In this document: piece by piece, positions 51,352-64,000 of the stretch
Layout of the letters: each line of letters starts with the position of its first letter
Numbering within the stretch: the stretch's first letter is position 1
Source of the DNA: Kiritimatiellia bacterium
GTDB taxonomy: Bacteria > Verrucomicrobiota > Kiritimatiellia > JAAZAB01
Assembly (NCBI GenBank): GCA_028718125.1
Contig: JAQUMN010000015.1
Location: 21,640-85,639 of the forward strand
Reading direction: 5' to 3'
Length of the DNA: 64,000 bases
Translations under genes and position numbers: made by a program
The notes under the pieces: model-generated
What the model saw: only the letters and a program-made list of their open reading frames with translations
What the model was told of the DNA's origin: nothing
Database searches by the model: none

Positions 51352-52014
51352 ATGAGCACCTCATCCAGTGTCCGCGAAAACGAGGTCGCCTTTTGTGGCG
51401 ACATTCAATCCTGGTCGGAAGCCCTGTTTGCGCGGCATCCGGAATGGCCCTTTTCACGTGCGGCCATTGAGCATTATGGCCCCACCGGGCATAAGCGGCA
51501 GGACCTACGATTTTTTCGGCGCGGGAACCAATCCCCGGTCATATCCGGCGAGGTCAAAATGCTGGGCACCCCCGAGGGCCAAAGCCCCTATCAGGCCGAT
51601 CTGATGCAGGATGCCTATCAGAAATCCGACAATATCCAGTGTCCCTTTTTCTTTACCTGGAACGTCAATGCATTCGTCCTGTTTGACCGCAGCCGCTGGA
51701 ATGTACCGATGATCCAGCGGCGCGTGCGCGACTGGGAACTGGGTATCCATTTGGCTAATCCTTCCGATTGCCGGCGACCGGATGTCCAGGCCGAAATCCG
51801 TGAAAAGTTCCTGCCCCGCCTGGGCGTCACCGGCGACCTCGCGTTGCCCAAATCGGAAGCCGACTGCCGGCATTGCCTCAAGGACCTGAACGACCGCCTG
51901 CGCCAAGCCAATGAGCGCTTCGCCGCCCTGGCCGCCTCCCGCACCGGCAACGCCGAAATGCAGGAAAAAACCGCCAGCCTGTTGTTGCATTGGTATATTC
52001 ACGGCCGGGGGTAG
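51352..52014 (+). CDS. Short ORF resembling the N-terminus of a DNA methylase/restriction protein; probably truncated
   Basis: EHYGPTGHKRQDLRFFRRGNQSPVISGEVKMLGTPEGQSPYQADLMQDAYQKSDN; no methylase motifs downstream before the stop. Confidence 0.45.
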   Translation: MSTSSSVRENEVAFCGDIQSWSEALFARHPEWPFSRAAIEHYGPTGHKRQDLRFFRRGNQSPVISGEVKMLGTPEGQSPYQADLMQDAYQKSDNIQCPFFFTWNVNAFVLFDRSRWNVPMIQRRVRDWELGIHLANPSDCRRPDVQAEIREKFLPRLGVTGDLALPKSEADCRHCLKDLNDRLRQANERFAALAASRTGNAEMQEKTASLLLHWYIHGRG

Positions 52015-52048
52015 GATTAATTATCCGTCAATATCGGACAAACTAATT

Positions 52049-52744
52049 ATGAAAAAACGAGCCCAGCTTGTCTGTCAGCATCTGGAAAACATTTCCCGCG
52101 AGGCGCTGGAGAGGAATCCCGAAATCATCTATCAATACGTCCGTGGGCGGCAGGGCGTATATGCGCTGTACCGGCACGGGAAATTATACTATGTGGGCCT
52201 TGCGACAAATTTGCGCAACCGGTTGAAGCATCATCTCAAAGACCGGCATGGCCATTCGTGGGACCGGTTTTCAGTATATCTCACAATCGGCGATCATCAT
52301 CTGCGAGAGCTTGAGGCCTTGATCCTGCGCACGGTGAAGCCTAAGGGCAATAAGCAAAAAGGCAAGTTTGCCCGGTCAGAAGACTTGCGTCGCCGATTCC
52401 GGCGCGATAGCAAACGGAACGCCCTGGCACAGGTTGATGGATTGTTCGTCGAGATGCATCCTGCGCGGACGAGGCGAGAAACGGTCGATGAGCCCGATGG
52501 ACGCAAGCCCATCCTCGCGGTGTATATCACCGGACCAATGAAGCTAAGATCATTCTACAAGGGAAAGAAACTCAACGCCCGCGTGCGCAAAAACGGCACC
52601 ATTCGCTATGCTGGAAAAATTTACACATCCCCTTCTGTAGCTGGCGCCGCCGCCGTCAAACGCCGCACCTGCAACGGCTGGACCTTCTGGGAATACGAAC
52701 GCGCCCCAGGGGATTGGGTGAAATTGGATACCTTAAGGATATGA
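52049..52744 (+). CDS. GIY-YIG nuclease-like protein with C-terminal RAMA/DUF-type domain
   Basis: QGVYALYRHGKLYYVGLATNLRNRLKHHLKDRHGHSWDRFSVY (GVY..YVG core); C-term 'GTIRYAGKIYTSPSVAGAAAVKRRTCNGWTFWEYE'. Confidence 0.7.
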   Translation: MKKRAQLVCQHLENISREALERNPEIIYQYVRGRQGVYALYRHGKLYYVGLATNLRNRLKHHLKDRHGHSWDRFSVYLTIGDHHLRELEALILRTVKPKGNKQKGKFARSEDLRRRFRRDSKRNALAQVDGLFVEMHPARTRRETVDEPDGRKPILAVYITGPMKLRSFYKGKKLNARVRKNGTIRYAGKIYTSPSVAGAAAVKRRTCNGWTFWEYERAPGDWVKLDTLRI

Positions 52745-52768: not shown

Positions 52769-53353
52769 ATGACCACTACGGGATTAACAACCAATGTGAT
52801 GGTGCTCCTGAGTGGCGGAATCGACTCATCCGCCTGCGTTGAGTTCTACACGTCCAAGCGAATCTCCGTCACGGCCCTGTTTATAGATTACGGGCAGGTA
52901 TCCCGAAGGTGTGAGCAACGTGCTGCCATGCGTATATCAAACTATTTTGATATTCCATTCCGATGCCTATCCCTTAAGGGGGCGGCAAAAAAATGCAAGG
53001 GAGAGATTAGAGCAAGGAATGCGTTCCTTCTCTTCACGGCCTTACTTGAATTCCCACATCGAAGCGGGATTATAGCCATCGGAGTACATTCTGGCACACC
53101 TTACTTTGACTGTTCTGCCATGTTCATTCGTAAATGCCAGGATTCTTTCGACGAGTATGCCGATGGGCGCATCCAGATCGGAACCCCTTTTATTGACTGG
53201 ACAAAAAGTGATATCTGGTCTTATTCTATTAAGAAACTTCTTCCTTTGGAATTGACGTATAGTTGTGAGATAGGTCGCCGCCAACCTTGCGGCAAATGTC
53301 TGTCTTGCAGGGATTTGGAGGTTCTGCATGCTGGCGCGAAGCACAACCATTAG
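52769..53353 (+). CDS. QueC-like enzyme of type IV CBASS (Cap9-like)
   Basis: VLLSGGIDSSACVEF PP-loop; Zn site SCEIGRRQPCGKCLSCRDLE; location in a CD-NTase operon. Confidence 0.88.
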   Translation: MTTTGLTTNVMVLLSGGIDSSACVEFYTSKRISVTALFIDYGQVSRRCEQRAAMRISNYFDIPFRCLSLKGAAKKCKGEIRARNAFLLFTALLEFPHRSGIIAIGVHSGTPYFDCSAMFIRKCQDSFDEYADGRIQIGTPFIDWTKSDIWSYSIKKLLPLELTYSCEIGRRQPCGKCLSCRDLEVLHAGAKHNH

Positions 53354-54341
53354 ACCCCCGGGCGGGATTTCGATCCAGACACCAATCTTGGTTCCCTCAT
53401 TCTCCAGCAAAGGATTCAAAGTCAAACAAAATGGGATTTCAGAGGTAAAAGATATTTTCGTCAATACGGCAGAATTTCTCACAGAAACCATGTTGGTCAG
53501 CGCGTATGATATCTTCTATCGTCACATTCTATCCCCGCACAAATTTCCATGTGTGCCCGCCCTGACATTTGTCGATAGCGGGGGTTACGAGACAAATGCT
53601 GATCATGATTACTGCACCGTATATCATTTTCATAACAAGCCTCGTCCATGGGAACTGAAGCATCTTCAGAATATTCTTGATTCCTGGCCTGAACGCATCC
53701 CTGCAGTCTTTATAAATTTCGATAAGAGTAGCGCGGGAAAGAGCCTTCCTAAACAAATCGCACTTGCGCGAGGGCTCTTTGCTAACTACCCAAAACAAAT
53801 GCACAATTTTCTTTTAAAACCCTCCTGGCAATCAAAAGGAAATCTCTTGCCCATTATCAATGCGCTTCCGACCTGCATCACTGAAATTGCAGACTTTCAT
53901 ATACTCGGAGTCACGGAAAAGGAACTGGGTAATACGCCTCTTGACCGCATGGTTGCAATCGCTACCTTGCGACGCCATATGGATACCGCGAATATCCGCG
54001 CTCCAATTCAGGTGTTTGGCGCACTGGACCCACTTTCCGCATGCCTATATTTTCTTGCAGGAGCAGAGATATTTGATGGTCTGTCTTGGCTTCGGTTCTC
54101 CTATACCGACGGCTACTGCACGTATATGCAGAACTATGGCATTCTGCACATCGGTCTTGATCAAAACGACGATTATGTCCGCGCCAAGACATTCTCTGAT
54201 AACTACACCTTTTTGAGGGATCTTCAGCTAAAGATGCGAACCTTTGCTACGACTAAGGATTATAGCGCTCTACCGTACCATTCGGGTTTTTTGCGTCAAG
54301 CGTCGGATGCGTTATCAGGAAGGCTCAATGGAGGTGTCTAA
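53328..54341 (+). CDS. TGT-like (tRNA-guanine transglycosylase superfamily) protein of type IV CBASS
   Basis: ALTFVDSGGYET (cf. TGT DSGG motif); ADFHILGVTEKELGNTPLDRM; IQVFGALDPLSACLYFLAGAEIFDGLSWLR; overlaps the QueC-like ORF by 26 bp. Confidence 0.82.
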   Translation: MLARSTTIRPPGGISIQTPILVPSFSSKGFKVKQNGISEVKDIFVNTAEFLTETMLVSAYDIFYRHILSPHKFPCVPALTFVDSGGYETNADHDYCTVYHFHNKPRPWELKHLQNILDSWPERIPAVFINFDKSSAGKSLPKQIALARGLFANYPKQMHNFLLKPSWQSKGNLLPIINALPTCITEIADFHILGVTEKELGNTPLDRMVAIATLRRHMDTANIRAPIQVFGALDPLSACLYFLAGAEIFDGLSWLRFSYTDGYCTYMQNYGILHIGLDQNDDYVRAKTFSDNYTFLRDLQLKMRTFATTKDYSALPYHSGFLRQASDALSGRLNGGV

Positions 54342-55264
54342 TGGGTTCATCAGGGGGATTCTTCTCTAGTGGTATTGGTCCATCTAATCTTAGGCGGCAA
54401 GTCCAACAGGCCAACGATCTGAACCGGAGCGATGAATTCGTATCAAATATTGCGGCCATCTTAGATAGCTACCTTGCGAACGCGAACAAACGCGATTCGA
54501 CCGCGTTAACCAAGCATGTTCAGGAAATCATCGACGCTTTGGAAAAAGATATTGAGGGCTCAGTGAGCCTTCTCTTTGGCGGCTCCTTGGCAAAAAGCAC
54601 ATATGTCAATGGTTTGAGCGACGTTGATGCGCTTGTCTTTATCAATCGTTCGGAGTTAATCGACAAATCTCCCTCCGATGTTCAGACCTATTTTGCGAAA
54701 TGCCTTCGCCAACGATTCCAGAACACAGAAATCCATCAAGGCAGTATGGCTGTGACCGTGATCTTTAATGACATGGAGGTTCAACTTCTCCCCGCCATCC
54801 GAACAAAGACCGGTCTGCGATTATCTCTCGCTGATGGCTCCGCTTGGTCTGATGTCGTTCGTCCTGATAAATTCGCGTCCAAGTTGACAGACACCAATCA
54901 GCATTGCTCCGGCAAACTTGTCCCAACGGTAAAACTGGCCAAATTAATACTCGCAAAGCTGCCCGAGAATCATCAACTTACAGGTTATCATATCGAGTCG
55001 CTCGCCGTACGTATTTTCGACGAATATGCTGGGCCCTTTACAACAAAGGCCATGTTGAGGCGTTTTTTCATTGAAGCCCCAAATCATCTGCTTTCAAGAA
55101 TCGGCGACTCTACGGGTCAATCATTCCACGTCGACGACTACCTAGGGTCGGCAAGAAGTCTAAAAAGACGCATCGTCGCAGATACCATTGCACGAATCGG
55201 ACGAACTATCCAGAATGCTGATGCCGCCTGTTCTGTGAATCAATGGCGAGACGTATTGGAGTAG
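54341..55264 (+). CDS. CD-NTase (cGAS/DncV-like nucleotidyltransferase)
   Basis: LFGGSLAKSTYVNGLSDVDALVF (GS...DxD) and later MEVQLLPAI third-acidic region; GGAGGT at 54330-54335, 5 nt before ATG; TAATG overlap with preceding stop. Confidence 0.9.
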   Translation: MGSSGGFFSSGIGPSNLRRQVQQANDLNRSDEFVSNIAAILDSYLANANKRDSTALTKHVQEIIDALEKDIEGSVSLLFGGSLAKSTYVNGLSDVDALVFINRSELIDKSPSDVQTYFAKCLRQRFQNTEIHQGSMAVTVIFNDMEVQLLPAIRTKTGLRLSLADGSAWSDVVRPDKFASKLTDTNQHCSGKLVPTVKLAKLILAKLPENHQLTGYHIESLAVRIFDEYAGPFTTKAMLRRFFIEAPNHLLSRIGDSTGQSFHVDDYLGSARSLKRRIVADTIARIGRTIQNADAACSVNQWRDVLE

Positions 55265-55268
55265 TGTC

Positions 55269-55862
55269 ATGCAATGTGCTTGCGACGAGATACAAAGGCA
55301 ATACCGTGTTATCGATCAGACACTTACGATGTATTCTGTTCTCCGGGATCGTTACTCGCGACTTGCCCTTATAATCATTCTTGGTGTGCTCGCTGCGTCA
55401 GTATTTCTATGCGCCTTTACATTCACTCCTGATGACATTCTTCGTCTGTTGGGCGTTTCTGAGCCCATTGCTAGGCTCGCATTGGCACTTCTGTCAGCAT
55501 TTGTCTTCTTTCTATCGATTGCTAATCTCTGTCTTGGCTGGAGTGATAAATCGGCTCAGTTTGGTCAGGCTGCGGAATCCGTTTATCGTCTCAAAACGAT
55601 ATATCGATCTATCCTGATAAAAAACGCTGATCCAACCTTTGATGCTCTTTTACAACTTCATGAAGAATATAAGAAGGGCATGGAAGGCCTGCCTCGCATT
55701 CCGGATTCAGAATTTCTTAGGCTCAAGGCGTACCATCTCCGGAAAGTAGAGATCAGCAAGATGATCAGCTTGAGACCGGGGTATCCAGTATGGGTTCTCC
55801 GGGCAATATTGCTCATCCGCGGTCGATTTAAGGACACTACTAAGGAGGCAGAACGTCAGTGA
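55269..55862 (+). CDS. Two-TM (SLATT/S-2TM-like) membrane effector
   Basis: Two TM helices (LALIIILGVLAASVFLCAFTF; LALALLSAFVFFLSIANLCLGW) followed by a soluble helical domain; 4 bp after the CD-NTase. Confidence 0.75.
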   Translation: MQCACDEIQRQYRVIDQTLTMYSVLRDRYSRLALIIILGVLAASVFLCAFTFTPDDILRLLGVSEPIARLALALLSAFVFFLSIANLCLGWSDKSAQFGQAAESVYRLKTIYRSILIKNADPTFDALLQLHEEYKKGMEGLPRIPDSEFLRLKAYHLRKVEISKMISLRPGYPVWVLRAILLIRGRFKDTTKEAERQ

Positions 55863-56518
55863 ACACACAAGATAATCTCCAGTCCTTTGACAAGCATACG
55901 CTCCACATCGCTACTGCATACATGACAGCTAAAGAAACCGTAATAGAACAAGGCTATGCTGATGAAATCGACTGGCAAGACTGTCTTGATTTTAATGATA
56001 TTACGGAATGTTTTTTCCTTCGGGAGAGTGCTTGGGTCATCCTTTCTGCCGGGATGAATGAACGTGTAATAAAAAATAAATTTCTTGCGATCTCATCAGC
56101 TTTTTGTAACTGGGAATCGGCAGCAATAATAGTTAAAAACAGTTTGCGTTGTCGCCAAGTAGCCCTCGCAATCTTCGGCAACATCAAGAAGGTCGACGCA
56201 ATTCTCGACACCGCCCGCATTCTTAAAGAACGCGGGTTTCAAACAGTAAAGACCGAGATACTTGAATATGGCGTAGACTCCATTCGCCAATTTCCGTATA
56301 TGGGGCCAGCTACATCCTTTCATTTGGCGAAAAACTTGGGCCTACCCCTGGCAAAACCTGACAGGCATCTTGTCCGTGTTGCACGAAAAACTGGCTTTCC
56401 ATCACCTGCCGTGATGTGTGATCGCATTTCACAGGTTGTCGGCGACAAGGTTCCTGTCATTGACCTTGTCATCTGGCGATATGCAACCATCAACAGACAG
56501 TATCTCAATCTCTTTTAA
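55859..56518 (+). CDS. HhH-GPD/OGG-like DNA glycosylase-fold protein of type IV CBASS
   Basis: FPYMGPATSFHLAKNLGLPLAKPDRHLVRVARKTGF (HhH plus catalytic-Asp region); GTG start overlaps the upstream TGA. Confidence 0.8.
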   Translation: MNTQDNLQSFDKHTLHIATAYMTAKETVIEQGYADEIDWQDCLDFNDITECFFLRESAWVILSAGMNERVIKNKFLAISSAFCNWESAAIIVKNSLRCRQVALAIFGNIKKVDAILDTARILKERGFQTVKTEILEYGVDSIRQFPYMGPATSFHLAKNLGLPLAKPDRHLVRVARKTGFPSPAVMCDRISQVVGDKVPVIDLVIWRYATINRQYLNLF

Positions 56519-56698: not shown

Positions 56699-56783
56699 GG
56701 TTGGCAAAACCCAACCCAGCGAAAGAATCGGCGCTGCCATATTCGACCGTGGATTCACGGACCATGAGCTCGCGAAGATTCAT
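56613..56783 (-). pseudogene. HsdR 5' fragment fused to repeat-encoded tail
   Basis: MNLRELMVRESTVEYGSADSFAGLGFAN... overlaps the RhuM 3' end by 29 bp, then runs into the 122-bp repeat and stops. Confidence 0.45.
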
Positions 56784-57771
56784 GATTCTCAATGCGTTTG
56801 ATCTCCCGGTCGAAGTCTGAGATATATTCCGCGTCCTGCCGCTGGCGGTACACCTCGAATGCCCCCTCGGCTTTGAGCTTGGCCTCCAGCGCGCTCACTT
56901 TGCCCTTGTCTTGCAGAATCGGATAGTTCGACAATTCCAAAAAGCTGTTCAAGAAACCCACCCAATCGGCCATCTTCATCAGGATGCCCCGCTCGGCCCG
57001 ATTCTCCGCCAGATCGAGGTAGGCGGATACAATCCGGTTCAGCTCCTTCACATGGGCCTCGTTCAGGTAGTTCTTTGCCACTGTGACATCGGACTTTAGA
57101 ATCTTCCCGTGTGGCGCATGTTTCCAGGTTGTCAGGCCCAAGTAAATCTTGGCCGCATCGGCGGAAGCGTAGATCAGTTCCGCTGCCGTCTGGCCGGTAA
57201 TGGCCCAATGCAGCTTGTTCTGCACGGTGGCGAAGAACTCCTGGGTCACCGGTGCATCTGCGCTGTAATCCACCGACAGGGCGTAGATATCCGTGATCTT
57301 CTGGTAAAAGCGACGTTCACTGGCCCGAATCTCGCGGATGCGCTCCAGCAGTTCGTCGAAGTAATCCTTGCCAAAGACCTGTTTGCCCTGTTTCAGCCGT
57401 TCGTCATCCAGCACGAAGCCCTTGATGATGAACTCCTTAAGCGTCTTCGTAGCCCAGATGCGGAATTGCGTAGCCTGGTAACTGTTGACCCGGTAACCCA
57501 CGGCGATAATGGCGTCGAGGTTGTAAAAACCGGTCTGGTAACTTTTTCCGTCGGCGGCAGTTGTTTCCAAAATGGAAATAACTGATTTCTCCGCCAACTC
57601 TCCCGACTCGAAAATATTCTTCAGGTGCTTGTTGATGGCAGGCACCTTGACGCCAAACAGCTCGGCCAGAGCCTTTTGTGTCAGCCAGACCGTCTCATCT
57701 TTGAAGCAAACCTCCACCTTCACCGCCCCGTCCGGCGCGGAATATAGAAGAAATTGATTCTGGTCGTTCAT
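56755..57771 (-). CDS. RhuM-family protein
   Basis: VCFKDETVWLTQKALAELFGVKVPAINKHLKNIFESGEL; NLDAIIAVGYRVNSYQATQFRIWATKTLKEFIIKGFVLDDERLK. Confidence 0.93.
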   Translation of the reverse strand: MNDQNQFLLYSAPDGAVKVEVCFKDETVWLTQKALAELFGVKVPAINKHLKNIFESGELAEKSVISILETTAADGKSYQTGFYNLDAIIAVGYRVNSYQATQFRIWATKTLKEFIIKGFVLDDERLKQGKQVFGKDYFDELLERIREIRASERRFYQKITDIYALSVDYSADAPVTQEFFATVQNKLHWAITGQTAAELIYASADAAKIYLGLTTWKHAPHGKILKSDVTVAKNYLNEAHVKELNRIVSAYLDLAENRAERGILMKMADWVGFLNSFLELSNYPILQDKGKVSALEAKLKAEGAFEVYRQRQDAEYISDFDREIKRIENHESSRAHGP

Positions 57772-57788: not shown

Positions 57789-58180
57789 ATGAACTATTCG
57801 ATAACGCCGAATAGTTGCCCGCGCCTCCTCGGAAAAGGCCGGATTCAGCCACAGAATCGCATCGCGCAAGCAGCCCACCAGCAAGTTTTTGCTGCATGCA
57901 TCCCTCCGCCCGGGGGAGAATACCATGGCGACGGGTGGCTCCACCGCTATCAGGGCGGTGATACCGCGCCCTGCTCCAACTCGATCTTCAGCGGCTCGCG
58001 GCGCGACTCGAACGAGTCGGAAACATACTTGAGAAAGAACAGCCCCAAGGCAACGTGCTTGTACTCGGCGGCATCCACCGTGCCGCGTAATTTATCCGCG
58101 GCAGCCCAGAGGGTGTCTTCAAATCCAATACCCGTATCGTTCGCTTCCGGTTTTGCCACGATTATTCCTCCATGGATCAT
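57789..58180 (-). pseudogene. Type I RM remnant: HsdM N-terminus followed by HsdR-like fragment
   Basis: GIGFEDTLWAAADKLRGTVDAAEYKHVALGLFFLKYVSDSFESRRE then truncated; downstream frame has LRDAILWLNPAFSEEARATIRRYR, HsdR-like. Confidence 0.7.
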
Positions 58181-59697: not shown

Positions 59698-59815
59698 ATC
59701 CCGGCAACGTGCTACTCTCCCGTGGCCTACACCACAGTACCATCGCCGCAGGGGCCCTTAACGGTCGTGTTCGGAATGGGAACGCGTGTTACCTCCCCGC
59801 TATGATCACCGGGAA
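59698..59815 (-). rRNA. rrf: 5S rRNA
   Basis: Minus strand TTCCCGGTGATCATAGCGGGGAGGTAACACGCGTTCCCATTCCGAACACGACCGTTAAG...GCCGGGAT. Confidence 0.93.
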
Positions 59816-59884
59816 AAAAAGCCAATTGCATAGAGGTTGAACAAGGATTCACCTATTCGCACTCGAGTGGCGAGATAGGCAAAA

Positions 59885-62860
<2,976 letters not shown>

Positions 62861-63052
62861 ATACATTTGCCTGGTCTCGCCTACCCGAGCACAAGTAGAT
62901 TGTACTTGTTTTACCCTCTATGCAATTGTCAAAGAACAACGCCCCTTTACGGAGCTAAAAAATCGGCACATCCGATCCGCCCCCGCGGGATATTCGGACG
63001 AATAAAATCGAATCCAAAACGTCAAACGCAAATCCAAAATCTCAAATTCTTA

Positions 63053-63129
63053 TGGTGGGCGTGCCTGGAGTCGAACCAGGGACCTCGTCCTTATCAGGGA
63101 CGCGCTCTAACCAACTGAGCTACACGCCC
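63053..63129 (-). tRNA. tRNA-Ile(GAT)
   Basis: GGGCGTGTAGCTCAGTTGGTTAGAGCGCGTCCCTGATAAGGACGAGGTCCCTGGTTCGACTCCAGGCACGCCCACCA; CCA encoded. Confidence 0.97.
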
Positions 63130-63220
63130 CCGATCCACGGCCAATTTATGATTTATGATTTTTGATTTCTGATTTACCGCTCTGATTGAAAAACCAGCAA
63201 TCATATGTCATCAATTCAGC

Positions 63221-63296
63221 TGGTGGAGGCAACCGGGCTTGAACCGGCGACCCCGAGCTTGCAAAGCTCGTGCTCTGCCAACTGAGCTATGCCCCC
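63221..63296 (-). tRNA. tRNA-Ala(TGC)
   Basis: GGGGGCATAGCTCAGTTGGCAGAGCACGAGCTTTGCAAGCTCGGGGTCGCCGGTTCAAGCCCGGTTGCCTCCACCA; CCA encoded. Confidence 0.97.
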
Positions 63297-63581
63297 GATC
63301 CCATTTTTGATTTTTGATTTTCGACTTCTGATTTACCATTTTAATTGGAAAAATCAGCAATCAGCAATCACAAATCATCAATGCTGACGCCCCGGTCGCC
63401 GTCATTCAACAGAAATCTGCAGGCCAAACTTTTTTTCGAACCGGAAGAGGTGTGACTTGCTTCAAAGCCCCTGTTCACTTCAATCTGCCCCGGTTGCCCG
63501 GAGCTGACCCCATCCCGGCGATAAAACCAGGACAGTTGACCTCTCATTGTTCCGCAAGCTTGCGCTTTTGGAACGCTGATA

Positions 63582-64000
<419 letters not shown>

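Follow-up and report, generated by a model that had tools for sequence, protein, structure and literature searches.

An intact type IV CBASS operon in a Kiritimatiellia bacterium, with a glutamine at the third catalytic site of its cyclase

Introduction

Five adjoining genes in a 64,000-nucleotide stretch of DNA from a Kiritimatiellia bacterium (the window, meaning the whole stretch that was analysed) raise the question of whether they form a working anti-phage operon of the type IV CBASS class, an operon that is intact in sequence and idle in its host, or queuosine genes that happen to lie beside a cyclase. A preliminary description had called the locus a complete and intact type IV operon, and type IV the least understood CBASS class. 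The latter view has been overtaken, as work of 2025 showed that Cap9 and Cap10 bring about N-terminal deazaguanylation of the cyclase and that both are required for defence (PMC11996544, PMC13279940). In the system studied, Cap9 joins 7-carboxy-7-deazaguanine (CDG) to Gly2 of the cyclase, a G2D change abolishes defence, and the MGGS motif is required (PMC13279940).

Results

The operon is complete and every frame is open

Five open reading frames fill positions 52769–56518 on the forward strand of the window. Their coordinates agree with those first reported, as do all four junctions: the first two genes overlap by 26 bases, the second and third meet at TAATG, four bases separate the third from the fourth, and the last two overlap at GTGA (Table 1). 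The ORF lengths of 337, 307, 219, 197 and 194 aa all exceed those from every one of 200 mononucleotide shuffles, in which the highest top-five lengths were 173, 142, 108, 98 and 82. All five proteins were matched by PADLOC profiles (QueC, TGT, cyclase, 2TM effector and OGG), each match covering almost the full profile, with E values from 1e-36 to 1e-111, and the QueC, TGT and OGG matches by which type IV CBASS is recognised (cap9, cap10 and cap11) are adjacent on a single strand. In a PDB search, the first three proteins each matched one distinct sequence, namely Cap9, Cap10 and CdnD of 9NTN/9NTO. The motifs that had been read from the letters are real, with the QueC-like blocks, DSGG, GGS...DVD, the helix-hairpin-helix and two hydrophobic segments all found again, and the claim of a complete, intact type IV operon stands.

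Table 1. Coordinates of the operon genes, sites within the cyclase gene and neighbouring features, as positions in the window
Feature	Position	Strand	Basis
GIY-YIG/RAMA domain protein	51911..52744	+	
cap9, QueC-like ATP-dependent ligase	52769..53353	+	PADLOC QueC, Pfam QueC, PDB 9NTO Cap9, six motif blocks
cap10, TGT-like protein	53328..54341	+	PADLOC TGT, PDB 9NTN Cap10, DSGG and FDG
cdnD, CD-NTase (oligonucleotide cyclase)	54341..55264	+	PADLOC PDLC00790, NCBIfam CBASS_cyclase_b, PDB 9NTN/9NTO CdnD
MGSSGG codons, predicted deazaguanylation acceptor (Gly2) of cyclase	54341..54358	+	Gly2 in 22/22 type IV cyclases; MGGS needed in studied system (PMC13279940)
Codon 148 of cdnD (invariant Gln)	54782..54784	+	
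Two-TM effector, predicted membrane-acting	55269..55862	+	PADLOC 2TM effector, hydrophobic segments, AlphaFold model
cap11, OGG-like helix-hairpin-helix protein	55859..56518	+	PADLOC OGG, AlphaFold model, Foldseek, residue counts
RhuM-family protein	56755..57771	-	
HsdM N-terminal fragment	57950..58180	-	
rRNA operon	59699..64000	-	

Genomic surroundings and origin

Among 388 genomes of the host's phylum there was no other strong match to PDLC00790; ten others scored below 90 bits, versus 370 for the window copy. The GC content of the five genes is 0.45–0.48, compared with 0.56 in positions 1–50000 of the window. A GIY-YIG/RAMA domain protein is encoded 24 bases upstream of cap9. On the other side, a gene for a RhuM-family protein is followed by an N-terminal HsdM fragment of 76 aa; they look like what is left of a restriction system. 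An rRNA operon (5S, 23S, tRNA-Ile, tRNA-Ala and partial 16S) lies downstream, some 3 kb from the CBASS operon. Because the operon is isolated in the phylum, low in GC and flanked by GIY-YIG/RAMA, RhuM and HsdM genes, we think that it was probably acquired horizontally, within a defence island.

The same isolation could be taken to mean that the operon is carried silently or in decay, with its sequence intact but no function in its host, and this reading can also draw on the apparent remnants nearby, such as the HsdM fragment, on decayed copies elsewhere with split reading frames (L035 and L040), and on a promoter and terminator scan in which nothing rose above shuffles, so that no promoter exceeding chance was seen upstream of the operon. 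We nonetheless regard it as improbable, since all five frames are open, every motif is intact, a ribosome-binding-like GGAGG precedes the Cap10, CdnD and OGG genes, and the CDG pathway is present in the host.

Cap9 and Cap10 resemble the CBASS proteins and not the queuosine enzymes

Cap9 was matched by PADLOC QueC (1.6e-71, profile positions 5–186 of 190), by Pfam QueC (5.4e-24) and by Cap9 of PDB 9NTO (2.7e-44), and it scored far below the cut-off of the NCBIfam QueC equivalog (69 bits against 150). It contains the motifs LLSGGIDS and CEIGRRQPCGKCLSCRD and carries all six published Cap9 motif blocks, which are LxSGGxDS, Y/FxQ(x)5E, RN, H(x)4YxDCxxxF, PF(x)4K and CE(x)6CxxCxxCxD (PMC13329287). 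The Tyr/Asp pair by which Cap9 recognises CDG (PMC13279940) is kept as YxD. If the operon is a working CBASS system, as we prefer, Cap9 is predicted by analogy to conjugate CDG onto Gly2 of the cyclase.

Cap10 was matched by PADLOC TGT (1.3e-101) and by Cap10 of PDB 9NTN (1.3e-54), with DSGG at residue 83 and FDG at 249; Pfam and NCBIfam searches gave no match, and Pfam TGT was missed altogether. A canonical TGT exists separately in the genome, so Cap10 is not the tRNA enzyme; its predicted role is instead to bind the cyclase at its deazaguanylated N-terminus. That the two genes serve queuosine biosynthesis and stand beside the cyclase incidentally, as the Pfam call of QueC for the first and the TGT motif DSGG in the second might suggest, is scarcely credible, because full-length canonical copies of QueC (L002) and TGT are encoded elsewhere in the genome, the two proteins fail the equivalog and Pfam TGT models as described, and both match the Cap9 and Cap10 structures instead.

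Supply of CDG

Outside the window, the host genome holds queD and queE as two adjacent pairs, along with canonical copies of queC and tgt. QueD exceeded the cut-off of NCBIfam TIGR03367 twice. The QueE-family genes had TIGR04349 as their best match (1e-65 and 1e-69) and did not reach the cut-off of that model; their identity therefore rests also on adjacency to queD. With QueD and QueE both encoded, the host likely makes CDG, the substrate for Cap9. The two pairs, G000:C89 (L008) and G000:C8 (L009), differ; behind the C89 pair, queC sits at the end of the contig, and a transposase-like ORF is nearby.

Elsewhere, Cap9 is the only full-type QueC-like gene in the carriers L034, L037, L046 and L024 and in the broken L035. 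QueE was not found by two models in these same carriers, and QueD was also missing in L034, L035, L037 and L046; draft genomes may be incomplete. One guess is that carriers with no visible pathway, Devosia sp. YR412 among them, might obtain CDG from phages that bear it.

The cyclase has an N-terminal glycine and two catalytic carboxylates

CdnD was matched by PADLOC PDLC00790 (2e-111), by CdnD of PDB 9NTN/9NTO (1e-71) and by NCBIfam CBASS_cyclase_b (253 bits, cut-off 200). Its N-terminus, MGSSGG, is of the MGxS type and offers an exposed N-terminal glycine, Gly2, which every one of the 22 type IV cyclases in the alignment shares; 19 of these have Gly at the third position, two have Ser and one has Glu. 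The G-S...DxD signature is present as GGS...DVD and supplies the carboxylates D94 and D96. The third site is occupied by Gln148 (VQLLP), which a profile alignment to Rhodothermus-type cyclase structures pairs with the third catalytic Asp of 6P82 (VDAVP). Every type IV cyclase has Gln here (22/22, the solved CdnD of 9NTN included), and 10 of 10 other CBASS cyclases sampled from the host's phylum have Asp or Glu. Glu146, two residues before Gln148, is not invariant. As judged from these alignments, Gln at the third catalytic site is a property of the clade and is not peculiar to the window copy.

The CD-NTase assignment of 54341–55264 had been made to depend on matches to CD-NTase profiles and on a catalytic acidic triad; the profile half holds, and the triad half does not, Q148 being neither Asp nor Glu. 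Type IV membership is not refuted by this, because the Gln is common to all 22 type IV cyclases, among them the solved one. Because the third catalytic carboxylate is replaced, cyclase activity is assumed from relatives. With only two carboxylates and a conserved Gln, it can be argued that some further component has to complete catalysis, and type IV cyclases would then be a clade with two carboxylates and a strict Gln in which completion comes from elsewhere, e.g. from the deazaguanylated N-terminus or from Cap10. We hold this to be rather unlikely. Were it true, nucleobase licensing would be built into the chemistry and would not be regulatory only, the window copy being one instance.

The two-TM effector and the OGG-like protein

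The effector was matched by PADLOC 2TM effector (1.5e-36) and has hydrophobic segments at residues 32–50 and 71–89. Its AlphaFold model is all helical (pLDDT 93), and a fold search with it gave no confident match to a solved structure. In three Acidobacteriota loci, a Cap17-like/TIR-class protein (L028:6582-7775, L029:4688-5872 and L047:2154-3347, the last on the reverse strand) adjoins a type IV operon that has no 2TM gene, so that the effector slot is exchangeable.

The product of cap11 was matched by PADLOC OGG (1.6e-81) and modelled with a pLDDT of 95.2; the best Foldseek matches were archaeal and Thermotoga Ogg2, at TM scores of about 0.5–0.56 and E values of about 1e-3. A PDB sequence search with the single protein returned chance matches only, and Pfam found no family shared among 21 type IV OGG-like proteins. 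In a profile search of the PDB, the KPDRH that follows the helix-hairpin-helix aligned with the catalytic-Asp motif of 9O00. Asp168 is kept in all 21 proteins, none of which has Lys where 9O00 has its catalytic Lys (the residue there is V, T, I or A), so that the combination of a Lys in the helix-hairpin-helix and an Asp after it is lacking in cap11. Activity as a bifunctional 8-oxoguanine glycosylase/lyase is unlikely because the catalytic Lys is missing, and "OGG-like" describes the fold only. The protein could be a glycosylase of the monofunctional kind, or it could bind bases.

Discussion

We consider it very probable that the locus encodes a complete type IV CBASS defence against phages, acquired horizontally and working through a CDG-licensed cyclase. 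By analogy with the studied system, Cap9 would use ATP to activate CDG drawn from the host queuosine pathway and would join it to Gly2 of the cyclase, the modified N-terminus would be bound by Cap10, and both steps would presumably be needed for defence. On phage infection, the licensed cyclase may make a cyclic oligonucleotide that would switch on the two-TM effector; the membrane damage that might follow would lead to growth arrest or cell death, and the phage would be stopped. An accessory step, in which a base or nucleotide is bound or processed, is the probable role of the OGG-like protein.

Among 84,980 species genomes, a profile scan picked out 26 loci, and a plasmid search added one more. 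QueC-TGT-CdnD-2TM-OGG is the commonest order, found in several phyla at 14 of the 26 genomic loci (L022, L023, L026, L027, L030-L034, L036, L037, L042, L044 and L046); the remainder are cut by contig ends, broken, devoid of an OGG-like gene or arranged otherwise. In the Bacillota copies L025 and L041, the 2TM gene precedes QueC and there is no OGG-like gene. The earlier idea that such an arrangement, with its effector, might be untested is not supported, as the order is also that of the crystallised source, Rhizobiales bacterium Ga0077537. Single-sequence cyclase scans of genome and viral contigs found no relative, their peptide patterns being too specific, and neither a profile scan of viral contigs nor tblastn against phages found one. 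A CdnD tree gave the window copy no firm placement.

The system is thus a known one, with the order of the crystallised copy and a mechanism largely known since 2025, and the window copy alone leaves existing knowledge unchanged. It adds an intact, divergent copy (about 40–48% identical) to a rare defence class and extends that class into a phylum of which 388 genomes gave no second strong match. Three class-wide leads can be tested, namely the Gln in place of the third carboxylate, the OGG-like protein without a catalytic Lys and the carriers without a visible CDG pathway.

The solved Cap9, Cap10 and CdnD chains (9NTN/9NTO) are exact matches to the Ga0077537 locus (L027), which shares with the window the five genes in the same order, the N-terminal glycine motif and the site with two carboxylates and a Gln, its CdnD being about 43% identical. 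It differs in host phylum, in having MGGS where the window has MGSS, and in its effector, which is only 26% identical. The closest cyclase found, about 48% identical, belongs to the plasmid-borne system of Pseudanabaena sp. ABRG5-3 (NZ_AP017561.1, L011), which has the order QueC-TGT-CdnD-2TM but no OGG-like gene after the effector. The OGG2 8-oxoguanine glycosylases of archaea and Thermotoga (3KNT, 3N0U, 9O00) share the fold class of cap11 and a helix-hairpin-helix followed by [K/L]xDRH, whereas the type IV proteins lack the catalytic Lys (21/21) and the TM score is only about 0.5. The qatABCD system likewise pairs a QueC-family protein with a partner whose N-terminal glycine is essential, but it has no cyclase or TGT, and its QatC carries extensions and a Thr replacing the Tyr/Asp pair (PMC13279940). 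The window protein, by comparison with QatC, is of the short Cap9 form and has YxD.
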